Shown: piece by piece, positions 53,735-63,312 of the stretch | Position numbering within the stretch: the first letter of the stretch is position 1 | How the letters are laid out: the number at the start of each line of letters is the position of its first letter | Assembly: GCF_016907235.1 (NCBI RefSeq) | Contig: NZ_JAFBBO010000001.1 | Location: 1,488,001-1,552,000, forward strand | DNA: 64,000 nucleotides | Reading direction: 5' to 3' | Origin: Oerskovia jenensis | GTDB lineage: Bacteria; Actinomycetota; Actinomycetes; Actinomycetales; Cellulomonadaceae | Notes under the pieces: model-generated | The model's database searches: none | What the model was told of the DNA's origin: nothing | What the model saw: the letters and a program-made list of their open reading frames with translations, nothing else | Made by a program: the position numbers and the translations under genes

Positions 53735-56374
53735 ATGGGGGCAGTGAGCGCGACGCCAGTCCGTCTGCACGGCGCACCTCGCCCGCCTCACCTCGAGCTC
53801 GTGCGGGAGCGACTCGTGGACCGGCTCGACGCCGACGCGGCCCTGCGAGTCGTCCGTGGCCCCTCGGGCGGCGGGAAGACCTCGCTCCTGGCCGAGTGGG
53901 CCCGACGGCGGGGAGCGGAAGGGGTCTGGATCGCGACGGCACCCGGCACGACCCGGACCGAGCTCTGGCGCACCGTCGCTCGTCGGGCCACCCAGTCCGG
54001 GCTGTTGCGCTCGGAGACGACGATCGGCCTCGACGAGCTGACGACCGCCGCCCTGACCGTTCGGCTCGCCGAGGCGTTCCTCACGGTCCGCGGCGAGGTG
54101 CTCGTCGTCGTCGACGACTACCAGAACGTGCGGGACGACGAGGTGCACGAGGACGTCCTCACCCTGCTGCGCGCCTGCCCGAACCTGTCGGTCGCGCTCG
54201 CGACGACCACGAGCTCGATGCTCGAGGCCCCCGTCGTGGGCCTCGAGCTGAGCCGCACCGTGATCACCGCCGACCAGCTCCCGCTCACGCTCGACGAGAC
54301 CGCGCGGATGCTGCGCCAGGTCGGCGCGGACCTCGACCCGACGACGACGCACGTGAGCACGGGCGGACAACCCCTGTACCTGAGGGTCGCGATGCTCGCC
54401 GCCGAGCTCGCCGGCTCGCACGGCACCCCGGCCCACGTGCAGGTCGCCGACGAGCTGCTCCGGGCTGCGGTCGACAAGCAGCTCCAGGGCCCTGCACGAC
54501 ACCGGCTCGAGGCGTTCCTCACGCGGTGCGTCGTCCCCGAGATCCTGACCGGGGACCTCGCGGTGGCCCTGACGCTCGACCCGGACGCTCCCGAGCTCCT
54601 GTCGGACCTCGAGGCACGCGGCCTCGGCACGTGGGAACGGCGACCCACGGGACTCGTCTTCGTGCTCTTCCCCGTCGTGCGGTCCCTCCTCCTGGAGACG
54701 TTCCGGGTCGAGGACCCGGAGGCGTCCCGCGTGGTCGAAGCGGCGACCGCTCGGTGGTACCTCCAGCACGGCTACCCGGTCGAGGCCGTCCGGCACGCGG
54801 TGACGGCAGGCGACCTCTCGATCGCCTCGGCCGCGGTGTCCCGCTACTGGACCCAGGTCTTCGAGGAACGCACGATCGCGCAGCTCGACGTCCTGCGGGC
54901 GGTCCCGGTCGCCGAGCTGCGCCCCTGGCCCCTGCTCGCCGGCGCGCTCGCCCGTCACTACGACGCCATCCCCGGCGGGCGGGACGAGGCGATCGAGCTC
55001 TACCACGCGGCGCTCGCAGGGCTGCGGGTCGCACCGCGCCCCGCGACCCCGGGCGAGCGCGTGGCGCTCGAGGTCCTCGAGAGCCTCACGCTGCGGTCGA
55101 CGGGCTCGGCCGAGCGCGCGCTCTACCCGGCCCGTCGCGCGAACCGCATGCTGAACGAGCTCCGGGTCACCGAACGTCGCACCATGGCGCGCGACCTGCC
55201 GCGGCTGCGCGCCGAGATCGCGCGCTCGATGCTCCGCGGCGGGGCCGTGAGCGAGTCCCTCCTGGTCCTGGACGACCTCGCCGACTCCTCGGGGGACGCC
55301 CAGGGTGACCCGTCCATGCTGCACGGCCTCACGCTGCGCGCTGTCGCGCACGCCGTCCACGGCAACATCCCCGAGGCCCGGCGGGACCTCGCCGTCGTCG
55401 ACGCGTCGCGGTACGAGGAGAGCGCCCCACGGCGCAGCCAGGACCTCTACCACCTGGCACACGCGCTCGTCCGCATCGAACGGTTCGACGCGCGGGGCGC
55501 GCAGGTCCACCTGGACGCGATGCGCCCCTCCCTCTCGACCCTCGAGTCTCGTCCGCAGTTCGCACTGGCCCAGGCGTCGGTCGACCTCCTGACGTTCGAG
55601 CCGGCGCTCGGCGCCGAGCGGCTGCGACGGTACATCGAGTCGGAGCGTGGCCGGCAGCGGATCTCCGTCCGGGACAGCGACCAGCTCGGCTATGCCGCGG
55701 GTCTGCTCGACCTCGCCCGGGGACGCCTGGGGGCGGTCCACTCGACCCTCCGGGGCGCTTCGCCGTCGTCCGAGAGCGCCCCGCTCCTGCGCGCCCACCT
55801 CGCGCTGCTCACCGAGTCCTGGCAGGTCGCGCGAGACGTCCTGGTCGAGCACACCCCGCCGGTCGACGCGTCCCCGCGCCTGCGGGTCGCGCACTCGCTG
55901 CTCCTCGCGGCCGCGCTCGTGAACGGCACGGACGAGTCCCATGCGTGCGACGCGCTCGGGAAGTTCGCGGCCGTCGCCGACGACCGCCAGCTGCTCTTCG
56001 CCCTCGTCCTCCCACCGCGCCGGGAGCTCGGGGCCCTCGTCGACCTGGCCGCGCGCAGCAAGGACAGGACGGCCCAGCGGGTCCTCGCGGCCGCGGGCCC
56101 CGTCCCGGAGAGGTTCGCCGCGATGGTGGGCTTCCCGCAGGCACTGACGGATCGCGAGATCGTGGTGCTCGACAGCCTGCGGCGGCACGCGACCGCGGCC
56201 GAGATCTCGCTGAGCCTGACCGTCTCGATCAACACCGTCAAGAGCCAGCTCCGGTCGGTCTACCGCAAGCTGGGGGTGCGTCGCCGGGAGGACGCGCTCG
56301 CGAAGGGGATCGATCTCGGGCTCATCGTGGCCGACCACGTCGACCCGGCCTCGGCTCGCAGCGACCGGTGGTGA
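53735..56374 (+). CDS. Large ATP-binding LuxR-family regulator (MalT/LAL type)
   Basis: An 879-residue STAND-type regulator. Walker A VVRGPSGGGKTSLLAEW at residues 40-56, Walker B EVLVVVDDYQNV near 121-132, a winged-helix-like part, then about 450 residues of helical repeats (TPR-like, Ala/Leu/Arg-rich) and a C-terminal LuxR DNA-binding domain: LTDREIVVLDSLRRHATAAE then LSLTVSINTVKSQLRSVYRK LGV. It is likely to work as an ATP-switched oligomer. Its target is unknown; flagellar and sigma-like genes lie downstream. AGGAGG is 6 bases before the ATG. Confidence 0.9.
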   Translation: MGAVSATPVRLHGAPRPPHLELVRERLVDRLDADAALRVVRGPSGGGKTSLLAEWARRRGAEGVWIATAPGTTRTELWRTVARRATQSGLLRSETTIGLDELTTAALTVRLAEAFLTVRGEVLVVVDDYQNVRDDEVHEDVLTLLRACPNLSVALATTTSSMLEAPVVGLELSRTVITADQLPLTLDETARMLRQVGADLDPTTTHVSTGGQPLYLRVAMLAAELAGSHGTPAHVQVADELLRAAVDKQLQGPARHRLEAFLTRCVVPEILTGDLAVALTLDPDAPELLSDLEARGLGTWERRPTGLVFVLFPVVRSLLLETFRVEDPEASRVVEAATARWYLQHGYPVEAVRHAVTAGDLSIASAAVSRYWTQVFEERTIAQLDVLRAVPVAELRPWPLLAGALARHYDAIPGGRDEAIELYHAALAGLRVAPRPATPGERVALEVLESLTLRSTGSAERALYPARRANRMLNELRVTERRTMARDLPRLRAEIARSMLRGGAVSESLLVLDDLADSSGDAQGDPSMLHGLTLRAVAHAVHGNIPEARRDLAVVDASRYEESAPRRSQDLYHLAHALVRIERFDARGAQVHLDAMRPSLSTLESRPQFALAQASVDLLTFEPALGAERLRRYIESERGRQRISVRDSDQLGYAAGLLDLARGRLGAVHSTLRGASPSSESAPLLRAHLALLTESWQVARDVLVEHTPPVDASPRLRVAHSLLLAAALVNGTDESHACDALGKFAAVADDRQLLFALVLPPRRELGALVDLAARSKDRTAQRVLAAAGPVPERFAAMVGFPQALTDREIVVLDSLRRHATAAEISLSLTVSINTVKSQLRSVYRKLGVRRREDALAKGIDLGLIVADHVDPASARSDRW

Positions 56375-56501: not shown

Positions 56502-57101
56502 TCAGACGAGGTCGTCGACGATCCTGGCCGCAGCCCTCGTCCGTTCGTGCGACTCGCCGTCGTCGATCTGCAGGCCGGCCGCCACGAGCGCCGCCCTGCG
56601 GAGCCAGGAGAAGACGACCAGGACCGGGTACGTGTCCTCGCCGACGTAGACGCGGCGCCGCCAGGACGCCCAGGCGACCACGCGGGCCAGCACGGGGACC
56701 GGGTCGTCGAGCTCGTTGGCCCGGTGCGCGACGTTCTCCCAGCCGTGCTCGGCGTCGCTCATGAGCTGTGCCCCCTCGCGCCCCAGCGGGCGGGCGAGCG
56801 CCGCGAGACCGATGTCCTCCCGGATCTCGGTGGCCTCGGTCGGGACGAGGTCCAGACCGTCGCGGTAGGTCCCGAACGTCGTGGGGTCGACGTGCCGCCA
56901 GGGGTCGCTGTCCGGGAGCGAGTCGAGGAGGTCCGTGAGCGCCCCCGCGAGGAGCGACAGCGCACGCAGCCGATGCTCGAGAGCCTGGGCCCGCATCGCC
57001 TCGAGGTCGGCGACACGGTCGTACGGATCGATCAAGGGTTCGACCAGCCCGACGGCCCACGCCGCCCAGGTGGTGTCGTCCCACGGGGCCGAGGTCGTCA
57101 T
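56502..57101 (-). CDS. Protein of unknown function
   Basis: A 199-residue soluble protein, rich in Ala, Leu, Asp and Trp, apparently all-helical. Segments: WAAWAVGLVEPLIDPYDRV, RLRALSLLAGALTDLLDSLP and VARVVAWASWRRRVYVGEDT. No signal peptide or membrane helix and no family recognised. Codon bias supports it strongly. Its ATG overlaps the stop of a possible small upstream ORF. It ends converging on the LuxR gene 127 bases away. Confidence 0.65.
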   Translation of the reverse strand: MTTSAPWDDTTWAAWAVGLVEPLIDPYDRVADLEAMRAQALEHRLRALSLLAGALTDLLDSLPDSDPWRHVDPTTFGTYRDGLDLVPTEATEIREDIGLAALARPLGREGAQLMSDAEHGWENVAHRANELDDPVPVLARVVAWASWRRRVYVGEDTYPVLVVFSWLRRAALVAAGLQIDDGESHERTRAAARIVDDLV

Positions 57102-57242: not shown

Positions 57243-57487
57243 CTCCTGCTCGTCTGCGTGTCCGCGCCCAGGTCGGCGAGCGATCGCCGACGCGGAAGTG
57301 TATCCATCACCGGCACCGGCACAGAAGGGGCGGACGACACGAATCGCCGCCCGCACGGGTGAATTATGGACCCCGTGCCGCGGCAAGTCCCAGCATGGCA
57401 CCACCTATAGCACCAGCGAGGGTGAACTCCGGTGTGAAAACCGTGTTCAGACGTGAAAGTAGTGCGAAGCGGCCGCATGCTGAGGGC
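57102..57487. other. 386-base divergent gap before the sigma-like gene
   Basis: Apart from the possible small ORFs, it holds an AT-rich patch (57355-57475) that must contain the sigma-like promoter. TATAG occurs at 57406-57410 and GTGTGAAAACCG near 57431-57442, with GTGAA repeated. No flagellar sigma-28 consensus (TAAA-N15-GCCGATAA) was found. GAGGG precedes the ATG at 57488. Confidence 0.45.
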
Positions 57488-58444
57488 ATGAACGTGCGGC
57501 CCCCATCCGGCACGTGCCCGGACCGGGCACGTCAAGCGCGCTCCCTGCGTGCCGCGGAGGAGCCGCCCCTCGACGACGACCACGAAGCGCCTTCCGACGC
57601 GATGCGCTCGGACGTCGCGCGCATCGTGGGGCTCGACGACGACGCCCGCTACGACGCGGAGGTCTCCACCTTCATCGCCGGCCACCGCGACCACTGGCGA
57701 CGTATCGCCGCCAGGCTGTGCCGCACGAACTCGGTGCCGGTCGCCCAGCACCTCGAGGACGTCGAGGCGATCGTCACGGAGACCGTCTGGGAGATGCTCG
57801 AGCGGTCGAGGCAGGACCCGACCTACCTCGCCACCATGCGCTCGTTCCTGGCCATCGTCGTCTACACCGCGCGCCCCAAGGTCCGGTCGTTCGTGGATCA
57901 CACGACCGCGCCCGCGTCGGGCATGGTCTCGGCCCAGCGGCGTCGCCGCGAGCTGGCCCGCACCCGCGCCGAGCTCGCAGCCCTGCGTGGCACGGTCCCG
58001 ACGGTGCAGGAGGCCGTGCAGGCGACCAACGACCGGCTCGGCGCTCAACGTTCCGACGTCGTGCGTCAGGGGATGGTCGTCACCGAGGCCGACGAGCTCG
58101 CCCTGTCCGGCGCGCTCTCGTTCGACGAGGACCTCGACTCCCACCGTCTCGTCCAGGACGACCTCGACTGCGTGCTGCACCCGGTCGAGGCCCCCACCCT
58201 GGTGCGCTCGGTGGTCGACGCGGCCCAGGCCGAGAACCCGACACGGGGCAGGGTCGCCGCCCTGTGGATGGCCGAGGCGTACGGCAGCGGCCCGCTTCCG
58301 GGGCAGGACACGGTCGTGTGGATCTCGCGGACCCTGGGCCTGCCTCGCCGGAGCACCGCGGCGCACATCGACCGGGTCCGCGAGCTGGCCGCCACCCGCC
58401 TGCGCGCGATGGGCATCGGTACCGACCTCCTGGAGACGGCGTGA
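57488..58444 (+). CDS. Divergent sigma-70-family-like regulator
   Basis: A 318-residue cytoplasmic protein not assigned to a named family. Residues 60-140 resemble sigma region 2 (HLEDVEAIVTETVWEMLERS, then FLAIVVYTARPKVRSFVDHT). Residues 150-215 look like region 3 (RRRRELARTRAELAALRG, TVPTVQEAVQATNDRLG, then SFDEDLD). Residues 250-310 look like region 4 with a helix-turn-helix (VWISRTLGLPRRSTAAHIDR). Key region 2 residues are poorly kept, so it may be a degenerate or specialised sigma factor. It is followed after 153 bases by a membrane protein that could be its regulator. Confidence 0.5.
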   Translation: MNVRPPSGTCPDRARQARSLRAAEEPPLDDDHEAPSDAMRSDVARIVGLDDDARYDAEVSTFIAGHRDHWRRIAARLCRTNSVPVAQHLEDVEAIVTETVWEMLERSRQDPTYLATMRSFLAIVVYTARPKVRSFVDHTTAPASGMVSAQRRRRELARTRAELAALRGTVPTVQEAVQATNDRLGAQRSDVVRQGMVVTEADELALSGALSFDEDLDSHRLVQDDLDCVLHPVEAPTLVRSVVDAAQAENPTRGRVAALWMAEAYGSGPLPGQDTVVWISRTLGLPRRSTAAHIDRVRELAATRLRAMGIGTDLLETA

Positions 58445-58597
58445 ACACGGTCCCCCGCCCGTGCCCCGCTGCTTCGAGCGCGGGCACGGCGCCCCACGGT
58501 GCGAGCACGTCGCGCCGAGGTGTGCCCGCACCGCCGCACCACCGCCGTGTCCACGGCCGTACCAGCCTGCACGCCCGTGGGCAGGAGAGAACGCTGT

Positions 58598-59872
58598 ATG
58601 TCTGACGCCCGTCCTGCGCGCCGCCCCATCGAGGTCGACGCACTTTCCGGTCTCGCCGCCCTGCCCGCACACGCCCGTGAGCTCGCGATCGCCGAGTTCG
58701 TGGCCTCGCGCGCCGTCGAGCTCGCCCGCGAGGCACGACGCGTCGTGCGGACCCATCGGGTGGCCCCCGCCGATCGCCCGGCAGCGCACGACGCCGTGAC
58801 GACCGCCCAGCAGGCCCTGCTGCGGGACGTCGCAGCGGGGCGACGGAGCGTCGATCCTCGGAGCTGGACGCCCACCGTGCGTGCGGAGTCGATGCGAGCG
58901 GTCCACCGGTCGGCCGCCCAGGGCGTCTTCGCCGTGGCCCCCTACCGGCAGCGCCTCGCGGCGCAGCGCGCGACCCTGCTCGCGGTGCGCGAGAACGCGA
59001 CCGCCGGCGTCCCGGTCGCTCCCGGACCGACCGCGGCCACCGTCCGCCCGCTCGGGGCTCCGTCGACCGTCGCACCGCTCGCCGTCGCCCCGGAGGACGT
59101 CGCCCCGGTGCGGGTCGTGAGGGCGCCGGCCGGGCTCGTGGCCACCACGCACGCCGGACCGTCGGGGCCCCCTCGACACGCCCGCCGACCGGTCACGGTC
59201 CTCGGCCGCGCCGAGATCCCTCGACGTTCCCTGCGGTGGAGCACCGCCGCCCTGCTGTCGACCGTGACCATCGTGGTCGGAGCGGCGGTCGCCCCGGCGG
59301 AGGAGCGCCCCGCGGACGGGACGAGCACGTCGAACGTCTCGTTCGTCGACCGCCTCACGATGCCCATCGCCGGTCTGTGGGACAACCTCGTCGGAGGTGG
59401 CAAGGTCAAGGACCCCGAAGCGGTCGTCCCCGTCCCCGTCGTCTCCCCCACGCCCACCGCACCCCCGGTGCAGCAGCCCCCGGCTCCCACCGCGAAGGAG
59501 ACGCCCGTCGCCCCCGCCGTGCCCGTGGCTCCCCCTGCGCCCGCCGCGCCCGTTGTCCCGGGCGCCGGGACGAACCGGTCGCCGGCCCCGCCCGAGGGCG
59601 GTCGCCACGGCAACGGCAGCGGCTGGCACGACCACGACGACATGGGCCGCGGCGAGTGGCACGAGCGCGACGACGAGGACGACGACCGGGACGACGACGA
59701 CGATCGGCGCGGCGACGGGCACGGACGGGACGAGCAACGAGGGCAGGGGCGGGACGACGACCGAGGCGACCGGCACCGCTCGCGTGACGGGTCGGACAGG
59801 TCGCGGGGTCGGGTCAGGAAGGTCGGCGAACGCCGTCACAGCCGCCAGGGCGCGGGGGTCCCGCGCGCCTAG
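58598..59872 (+). CDS. Single-pass membrane protein with Asp/His/Arg-rich external tail
   Basis: A 424-residue protein. Residues 1-130 are a helical cytoplasmic domain (ARELAIAEFVASRAVELARE, PYRQRLAAQRATLLAVREN); 131-213 is a Pro/Ala linker; a transmembrane helix spans about 214-234; 277-333 is Pro/Val/Ala-rich; 336-416 is almost only Asp, His, Arg, Gly and Glu (WHDHDDMGRGEWHERDDEDD). The layout (N-in, C-out) resembles an anti-sigma factor or RsgI-type sensor; the tail could bind metal ions. GCAGGAG lies 8 bases before the ATG. Function unknown. Confidence 0.6.
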   Translation: MSDARPARRPIEVDALSGLAALPAHARELAIAEFVASRAVELAREARRVVRTHRVAPADRPAAHDAVTTAQQALLRDVAAGRRSVDPRSWTPTVRAESMRAVHRSAAQGVFAVAPYRQRLAAQRATLLAVRENATAGVPVAPGPTAATVRPLGAPSTVAPLAVAPEDVAPVRVVRAPAGLVATTHAGPSGPPRHARRPVTVLGRAEIPRRSLRWSTAALLSTVTIVVGAAVAPAEERPADGTSTSNVSFVDRLTMPIAGLWDNLVGGGKVKDPEAVVPVPVVSPTPTAPPVQQPPAPTAKETPVAPAVPVAPPAPAAPVVPGAGTNRSPAPPEGGRHGNGSGWHDHDDMGRGEWHERDDEDDDRDDDDDRRGDGHGRDEQRGQGRDDDRGDRHRSRDGSDRSRGRVRKVGERRHSRQGAGVPRA

Positions 59873-60225: not shown

Positions 60226-60294
60226 CGACGTCCTCCTGACGTTCACGCATGTCGTCCTGACCTTCCGCGACCACCTATGCGGGCCGTCCGCCCC

Positions 60295-61134
60295 TCAGCC
60301 CGCGTCCCACCCCTCGAGCAGCCCGAGGAGCTGGACGGTCTCCGGGGTCCGGGTCGCCGATCGCCCGACCACGACCATGGCGTGCACGTGCACGACCCCG
60401 CGCAGGGCATCGACCCAGGCCGCGGTGTCGGCGTGCTTGCGCGAGGCGTCGACGACGACCCACACCTGTTCGGGCGCGATCTCGTCGAGCACCCTGAGCC
60501 CGTCGACGAGGTCGGTCGCGACGCCGACGGCGACCGCGGTCGCGGTGCCGGCGTGCACACCGCGCGCCCGTGCCTCGGTCGCGCCGCGCCGGTCGACGAC
60601 CCGGGGGGACTCGCCGTCGAGCGCGAGCCCTGCCGTGCCCGTCAGGAGACCGAGGCGCCCGCGCATCGCTCGCGCCACGGCGACGGCGTCCCCACCCAGC
60701 CCGACGAGCGCGACGAGGTCCCCGGGGGCCCTCGACGGACCGGTCTCCCTCGGACCGCGGGCGGGTTCGGGGAGTGCGGTCTCGGCGATCAGCTCGTCGA
60801 GCATCGCGGCGAACCCGTCGCCCCCGGTCGACACCTCGAGGTCCTGCGGACGGGACGGCTCGAGCCGGTCGGCGTCGTCGGCGTCGTCGAGCAGCGCGGC
60901 GATGCCCGCCCGGCGGGCGGCCGGGAACTGGACCGCGTGCTCGGTCGCGCGGGGCGGGACCGGGGACGCGACCTCGACCACGGCCTCGTAGTGCTGCCGG
61001 CCGAAGAGCCCCTTGATGCCACCGGTGATGATCCGCTCTGCGGACACGATGCGCACGTCGGGGCCGTGCTCCCGCCGCGCCTGGTCGAGGATCGCCTCGA
61101 GGGTGTCACCCGCGAGCCGCAATCGCCGGGGCAT
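60295..61134 (-). CDS. FlhF-like flagellar protein lacking the GTPase P-loop
   Basis: A 279-residue protein placed between flhA and csrA where flhF normally lies. Residues 8-55 match the FlhF N-terminal domain (LEAILDQARREHGPDVRIVS, IKGLFGRQHYEAVVEV). The SRP-type GTPase region is reduced: at the P-loop position it reads LVALVGLGGDAVAVARAM (residues 140-157) with no GKT, and later G motifs are weak (VWVVVDASRKH). It thus probably cannot hydrolyse GTP. Its ATG lies 29 bases inside the flhA 3' end. Confidence 0.65.
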   Translation of the reverse strand: MPRRLRLAGDTLEAILDQARREHGPDVRIVSAERIITGGIKGLFGRQHYEAVVEVASPVPPRATEHAVQFPAARRAGIAALLDDADDADRLEPSRPQDLEVSTGGDGFAAMLDELIAETALPEPARGPRETGPSRAPGDLVALVGLGGDAVAVARAMRGRLGLLTGTAGLALDGESPRVVDRRGATEARARGVHAGTATAVAVGVATDLVDGLRVLDEIAPEQVWVVVDASRKHADTAAWVDALRGVVHVHAMVVVGRSATRTPETVQLLGLLEGWDAG

Positions 61135-63175: not shown

Positions 63176-63312
63176 GCGGAACCCTGGTCCTTCCCGGTCC
63201 GGAGCGGTGGCAGGTGCTGCCGCGAGGCCCTATGCACGTCGCGGCGACGGCAGCACGGGCCGCCGGTGGCGCAGGTCGGGCGAGGGCGCGGCGCACCTCG
63301 TCCTCGGACGCG

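Follow-up and report, generated by a model that had tools for sequence, protein, structure and literature searches.

A divergent sigma-70-like protein and a membrane-tethered relative of its region-2-like domain as possible regulators of flagellar operons in Oerskovia jenensis

Beside the flagellar genes of Oerskovia jenensis are 2 neighboring genes whose products, here called P0001 and P0002, are conserved together. Sequence profiles and a structure model give good support to the view that P0001 is a divergent sigma-70 relative in which region 2 is the least kept. P0002 is a one-pass membrane protein and, because of profile matches and a shared order of predicted helices, its N-terminal ~137 residues are taken as a membrane-tethered, degenerate relative of the P0001 region-2-like domain. 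The reading we prefer, with a probability of roughly 0.4, is that P0001 serves as a sigma-70-type factor for flagellar operons preceded by the sequence GCATAGG, with P0002 as its membrane partner, a LuxR-family regulator acting upstream, and FliA acting later.

The window, meaning the whole stretch of 64,000 nucleotides that was analyzed, is 1488001-1552000 of a 4.45-Mb genome in a single contig. The initial annotation had placed the 2 frames 153 bases apart, and both were found there; related genomes carry orthologs of both, so neither is a chance frame. To their right, on the opposite strand, are csrA, a gene that we take to be FlhF-like, flhA, and flhB. Past the window end, Pfam identifies fliM, a rod-protein gene treated here as flgB, a FliA-type gene (genome positions 1575421-1576371, outside the window), and flagellins. 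In window coordinates, the protein features are as follows, where carriers are the genomes with a close P0001 ortholog:

53735-56374, forward strand: LuxR-family regulator with an ATPase domain, 879 amino acids (Pfam AAA_22 and GerE)
56502-57101, reverse strand: conserved neighbor protein, 199 amino acids, present across carrier clusters
57488-58444, forward strand: P0001, divergent sigma-70-like protein, 318 amino acids
58598-59872, forward strand: P0002, one-pass membrane protein, 424 amino acids
58598-59008, forward strand: P0002 residues 1-137, related to the P0001 region-2-like part (profiles, hmmsearch, and predicted helices)
59243-59299, forward strand: P0002 residues 216-234, membrane-spanning stretch (hydropathy; kept in the ortholog alignment)
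59630-59869, forward strand: P0002 charged tail rich in Asp, Arg, and Gly (varies among orthologs)

Searched as a single sequence against Pfam and NCBIfam, P0001 has no significant sigma match. A family alignment was made of 19 members, including relatives from mobile elements and plasmids. With Pfam matches counted at E up to 10, the most frequent Pfam family among these relatives is Sigma70_r3, found in 7 of the 19 with a best E = 1.2e-4, and Sigma70_r4_2 matches 2 of the 19. When the family profile is compared with 41 local profiles, only itself, FliA, and P0002 stand out. The FliA match (score 48.8, probability 87.5, E = 3.6e-6) covers P0001 residues 147-291, FliA being the best match among local genes for regions 3-4. 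The match to P0002 scores 38.2, and none of the remaining 38 local profiles exceeds 18.6, although those 38 include antisense frames and repeats (three flagellins, flhA twice), so that the decoy set is effectively smaller than 38. Profiles recognize regions 3-4; region 2, which is the least well kept, is apparent only in the predicted fold, and by eye it is without the conserved aromatic residues. The AlphaFold model has 13 helices with a mean pLDDT of 71.7 and a pTM of only 0.38. Foldseek with this model gave no match at E <= 0.001, and its top rows were sigma chains, for which the probability was near 1.00 and E began at 1.3e-3. A profile search of the PDB with 13 family members found sigma factors at E = 0.17-0.63, and with 19 members it found EncB only, at E = 0.07-0.18. 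The segments like sigma regions 2, 3, and 4, with a poor region 2, that the initial annotation had described thus appear to be borne out for the P0001 family, and profile searching leaves the protein with the sigma factors rather than in an unrelated family. It is not the FliA ortholog; the cluster has a separate FliA with Sigma70_r2 and r4. A Pfam match of P0001 to Aldolase_II lay under the cut-off and was set aside.

P0002 has a single strongly hydrophobic stretch by hydropathy, in 19-residue windows starting at 214-218, in agreement with the one-pass topology first proposed for it. A cytoplasmic domain of 130 residues had also been proposed, and a domain is indeed predicted to fold at ~1-137, but the whole segment preceding the membrane has about 212 residues. 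That domain aligns collinearly with the region-2-like part of the P0001 family over 127 columns with a score of 33.1, as compared to 10.8 for the reversed profile and a maximum of 17.3 in 150 column shuffles. A second program, hmmsearch, finds a P0001 relative (in locus L031) with the P0002 profile at E = 1.3e-5, and matches a P0002 frame with the P0001 profile at E = 5e-4. The link is clear only when the wider P0001 family is used: with the nine close orthologs alone it is weak (E = 0.03), the P0002 profile scores 19.5 against the local P0001 alignment and 18.1 against the best unrelated alignment, and BLAST of P0001 versus P0002 gives no match. No link was found between the P0002 profile and FliA, the score being 13.1. 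In separate structure predictions the order of the helices is alike, at residues 35-47, 52-65, 67-80, 85-109, 120-139, and 144-167 in P0001 and at 11-20, 24-37, 39-52, 57-79, 87-107, and 116-136 in P0002. Foldseek with the P0002 model returned nothing significant (best E = 4.0), and the rows ranking highest by query TM-score (0.43-0.48) were sigma chains, namely RpoS region 2, SigI6, sigma-28, and a sigma-B model. Against Pfam and NCBIfam, P0002 matched no family at E <= 10, including any of an anti-sigma kind. On these comparisons P0002 looks less like any known anti-sigma domain than like a tethered mimic of a sigma factor, and where the initial annotation had pictured its inner domain as a holder of the sigma-like protein, what appears instead of a generic holder is a diverged relative of the P0001 region-2-like part. 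Across the order, P0002-like domains were found in 12 of 248 genomes at E <= 0.01, the window genome included; the best outside the window genome is at 4e-4, and the matches are partial.

It could be supposed that the 2 proteins make up one split sigma factor, as in SigO-RsoA, with P0002 giving the region-2-like part, given that this is the only sigma-like domain that P0002 has and that its gene is directly after that of P0001. We regard that as very improbable, as P0001 possesses a region-2-like part of its own, the profile alignment places Asp residue 91, invariant across the P0001 family, opposite an Ala of P0002, and a sigma part fixed in the membrane would be unusual. As for the outer end of P0002, the tail was first said to be mainly Asp, His, Arg, and Gly, and its final 80 residues do hold 21 Asp, 20 Arg, and 13 Gly, but only 5 His. 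The ortholog tails are low-complexity and vary by species, with Pro-rich, Lys/Ser-rich, and Glu/Arg/Trp-rich forms. With a tail that is unconserved and has so few His, there is no support for a metal sensor, and the early suggestion of metal-ion or charge sensing by it has been dropped.

Among 200 genomes of the family, close P0001 orthologs (68-93%) are found in the window genome and 8 others, belonging to Oerskovia, Cellulosimicrobium, and Isoptericola and flagellated in 9/9 cases, and four more of the 200 have only distant relatives (27-37%). P0002 orthologs adjoin P0001 in 7 other genomes, and the pairing that was first proposed is kept in 8 of the 9 carriers, the contig of the ninth (G137) ending shortly after the P0002 start. 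The flhA gene is present in 100 of the 200 genomes including all nine carriers, and the other 91 flhA genomes are without a close P0001. In genera g1 (Oerskovia, 4 of 7 genomes), g8 (four), and g22 (one), the set of genomes with flhA is the same nine genomes as the set with a close P0001. Orthologs of the LuxR/ATPase protein (62-93%) are in the same nine genomes, with the next matches at about 35%. The 199-aa neighbor (56502-57101), for which a Pfam search matched no family, is in 8/8 carrier clusters versus 0/10 non-carrier clusters. Because physical linkage would explain joint loss, co-occurrence alone is no proof of function. The link to motility, which the initial annotation had drawn from location, is nevertheless strengthened by this co-occurrence with flhA together with GCATAGG being common to four flagellar operons, and that annotation's interpretation as a whole is partly supported.

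A comparison of upstream regions finds that GCATAGG precedes csrA, flhA, fliM, and flgB in carriers. At flhA and again at csrA it is present in 8/8 carriers versus 0/10 flagellated non-carriers, at fliM in 4/4 versus 0/9, and at flgB in 4/4 versus 0/5 non-carriers with the gene properly placed; these counts exclude rows without a located gene, and the flgB row of G015 was dropped for a misplaced anchor. A GCT located 15-16 bases ahead of GCATAGG is usual, not universal. Both of the sites within the window have it:

60274-60299, reverse strand: csrA promoter-like site GCT-N16-GCATAGG (8/8 carriers, 0/10 others)
63229-63254, reverse strand: flhA promoter-like site GCT-N16-GCATAGG (8/8 carriers, 0/10 others)

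As a check on a choice made by eye, all 7-mers that four genomes share upstream of a given gene were collected for ten genes, with one gene lacking in two genomes left out. Of 213 conserved 7-mers, 10 occur at at least 2 genes, and GCATAGG alone occurs at at least 3 of the ten. Against shuffles, GCATAGG counts are mildly above expectation in carriers (2-6 versus means of 0.6-3.1) and are 0 or 1 in non-carriers. Genome-wide totals of GCT-GCATAGG are no higher than those of a reversed-pattern control, so it is position alone that is telling. In the nine carriers, 34 of 59 matches to the two-part pattern fall within the flagellar cluster or on a contig that carries flhA, FliA, or P0001, and 11 flagellated non-carriers have 23 matches, one of which (G015) is about 4 kb from flhA. 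A TANNNT within 25 bp of the csrA start is found in 7/7 of the non-carriers counted and in none of the carriers, which suggests that the promoter type of csrA changed in carriers; csrA is the only one of the genes where the groups differ in this, flhA and fliM showing no such difference.

The main rival to our reading, which we consider unlikely, is that the diverged FliA of the carrier lineage reads GCATAGG, with P0001 only modulating FliA or serving other genes. Carrier FliA, altered in its region-2 and region-4 helices, is only 40-46% identical to non-carrier FliA, and both promoter kinds may, by eye, have a CTSA-like upstream box. All nine carriers belong to one lineage, and FliA, LuxR, and P0001 are all different there, so distribution alone cannot assign the sites to P0001; hence, the link of P0001 to GCATAGG and the role of P0002 are what we infer. 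Carrier flagellins, however, have upstream GCCGACAG, GCCGAGAG, or GTCGAGAG, with a GCCGA or GTCGA box that resembles the known FliA box, and with such a box retained, FliA seems to keep its specificity. The FliA-type pattern in its usual form was found in none of four clusters.

Ahead of P0001 itself are 2 elements:

57419-57439, forward strand: AGGGTGAA-N5-GTGTGAAA, invariant, 48 bp before P0001, a probable activator site (9/9 loci)
57476-57481, forward strand: CATGCT, -12 to -7 of the P0001 start (nine aligned upstream regions)

The first is kept in 9/9 loci, 48-49 bp ahead of the start codon. Each of the nine carrier genomes has one perfect match, three of the nine show one extra match with 2 mismatches, and four congeners or relatives without flhA have no match. 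The second is possibly the -10 box of a leaderless transcript. If P0001 is the sigma factor for the GCATAGG operons, then the LuxR/ATPase protein probably activates it through AGGGTGAA-N5-GTGTGAAA, and P0001 would direct RNA polymerase to the GCT-N15/16-GCATAGG promoters of the csrA, flhA, fliM, and flgB operons. P0002 at the membrane would bind and restrain P0001, either holding it or competing with it for a common partner, until an envelope or flagellar-assembly signal released P0001 from this control. FliA would act later, at flagellin, giving a chain from LuxR to P0001, then to the GCATAGG operons, FliA, and flagellin.

Several known systems resemble parts of this scheme. PhyR, a response regulator that has sigma-2 and sigma-4 parts, is an example of sigma-factor mimicry (PMC8103513, PMC4598750). 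The likeness to PhyR-NepR-EcfG is that a sigma pathway is regulated by a second protein through a degenerate sigma-like domain, and the difference is that P0002 has the region-2-like part alone with a membrane anchor and without any receiver domain match in Pfam. In SigO-RsoA of Bacillus subtilis, sigma domains are split between 2 proteins (PMC8103513, PMC10141391), which is similar in that sigma-like domains are distributed over neighboring genes, but P0001 has regions 2-4 by structure while P0002 repeats region 2 and is membrane-bound, a distinction drawn from published descriptions. In logic, PhyR and SigO-RsoA come closest, and neither, as those papers describe it, has a membrane-fixed sigma-like domain. 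FliA-FlgM shares the control of flagellar genes and the local closeness of FliA to P0001 regions 3-4, but FliA is encoded separately in all 9 carriers, and an FlgM model matched 0/20 flagellated genomes of the family, although FliA is present. In RsgI-SigI and ECF/anti-ECF pairs, a sigma-like gene is followed by that for a one-pass membrane protein, as is the case here, but P0002 is without an anti-sigma match in Pfam or NCBIfam. No prior description of the P0001-P0002 pair was noticed in those parts of the open-access literature that the survey covered.

Plasmids from Arthrobacter, Pseudarthrobacter, Paenarthrobacter, and Curtobacterium carry distant P0001 relatives (8 records, about 375-608 kb), and some relatives are at other loci. 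In the class, relatives were found in 2 of 384 genomes, the window genome included, and phages queried with one distant relative gave no match. A profile search for P0002 beside distant relatives found none at 13 loci, ten of them short. Three plasmid relatives that were inspected (L064, L065, L066) are near AAA or ParA-like ATPases. Such company, together with the poorly kept region 2 motifs, would fit a P0001 that is no longer a sigma factor and acts like its plasmid cousins as a DNA- or partner-binding relative, along with SigA or LuxR. We consider this quite unlikely, as regions 3-4 are still recognizable and a special promoter class accompanies the gene. The chromosomal pair may have come from a plasmid regulator that was domesticated. 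A fuller account, offered tentatively and at less than even odds, is that a plasmid-type sigma-like protein was acquired by the chromosome, that its region-2-like domain was duplicated and membrane-tethered, and that the pair took over the early flagellar operons with the new promoter class GCT-N15/16-GCATAGG, which would have replaced, e.g., a SigA-like promoter ahead of csrA. Around L064, L065, and L066 there are also large unknown proteins near the P0001 relatives, forming a recurring plasmid neighborhood, and in L031 (8749-10185, reversed strand) there is another protein that by eye is sigma-like near a distant P0001 relative.

To our knowledge, little is known of flagellar gene activation in many motile actinobacteria; the flagellar cluster of Actinoplanes has reportedly been the subject of a published study. 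If true, the proposals made here would give a regulatory cascade that can be tested at defined sites, along with a sigma-like family common to the chromosome and large plasmids, a sigma domain that was copied and then fixed in the membrane as a regulator, and a flagellar promoter class rewired inside one bacterial family.

There are 2 minor observations on sites elsewhere. In Cellulosimicrobium and Isoptericola, an extra GCATAGG site is ahead of a gene, positioned to the left of the LuxR gene, whose product is a protein of the surface or a secreted one (L028 near 5907, L027, and L029 near 6222). Upstream of flagellin, between the promoter box and the ribosome site, there is a short inverted repeat with a central GGA, e.g., GCCCATGGATGGGC, in L057 (outside the window), L103-L105, L107, and L113; we take it to resemble a CsrA-binding hairpin, and csrA is in the cluster.
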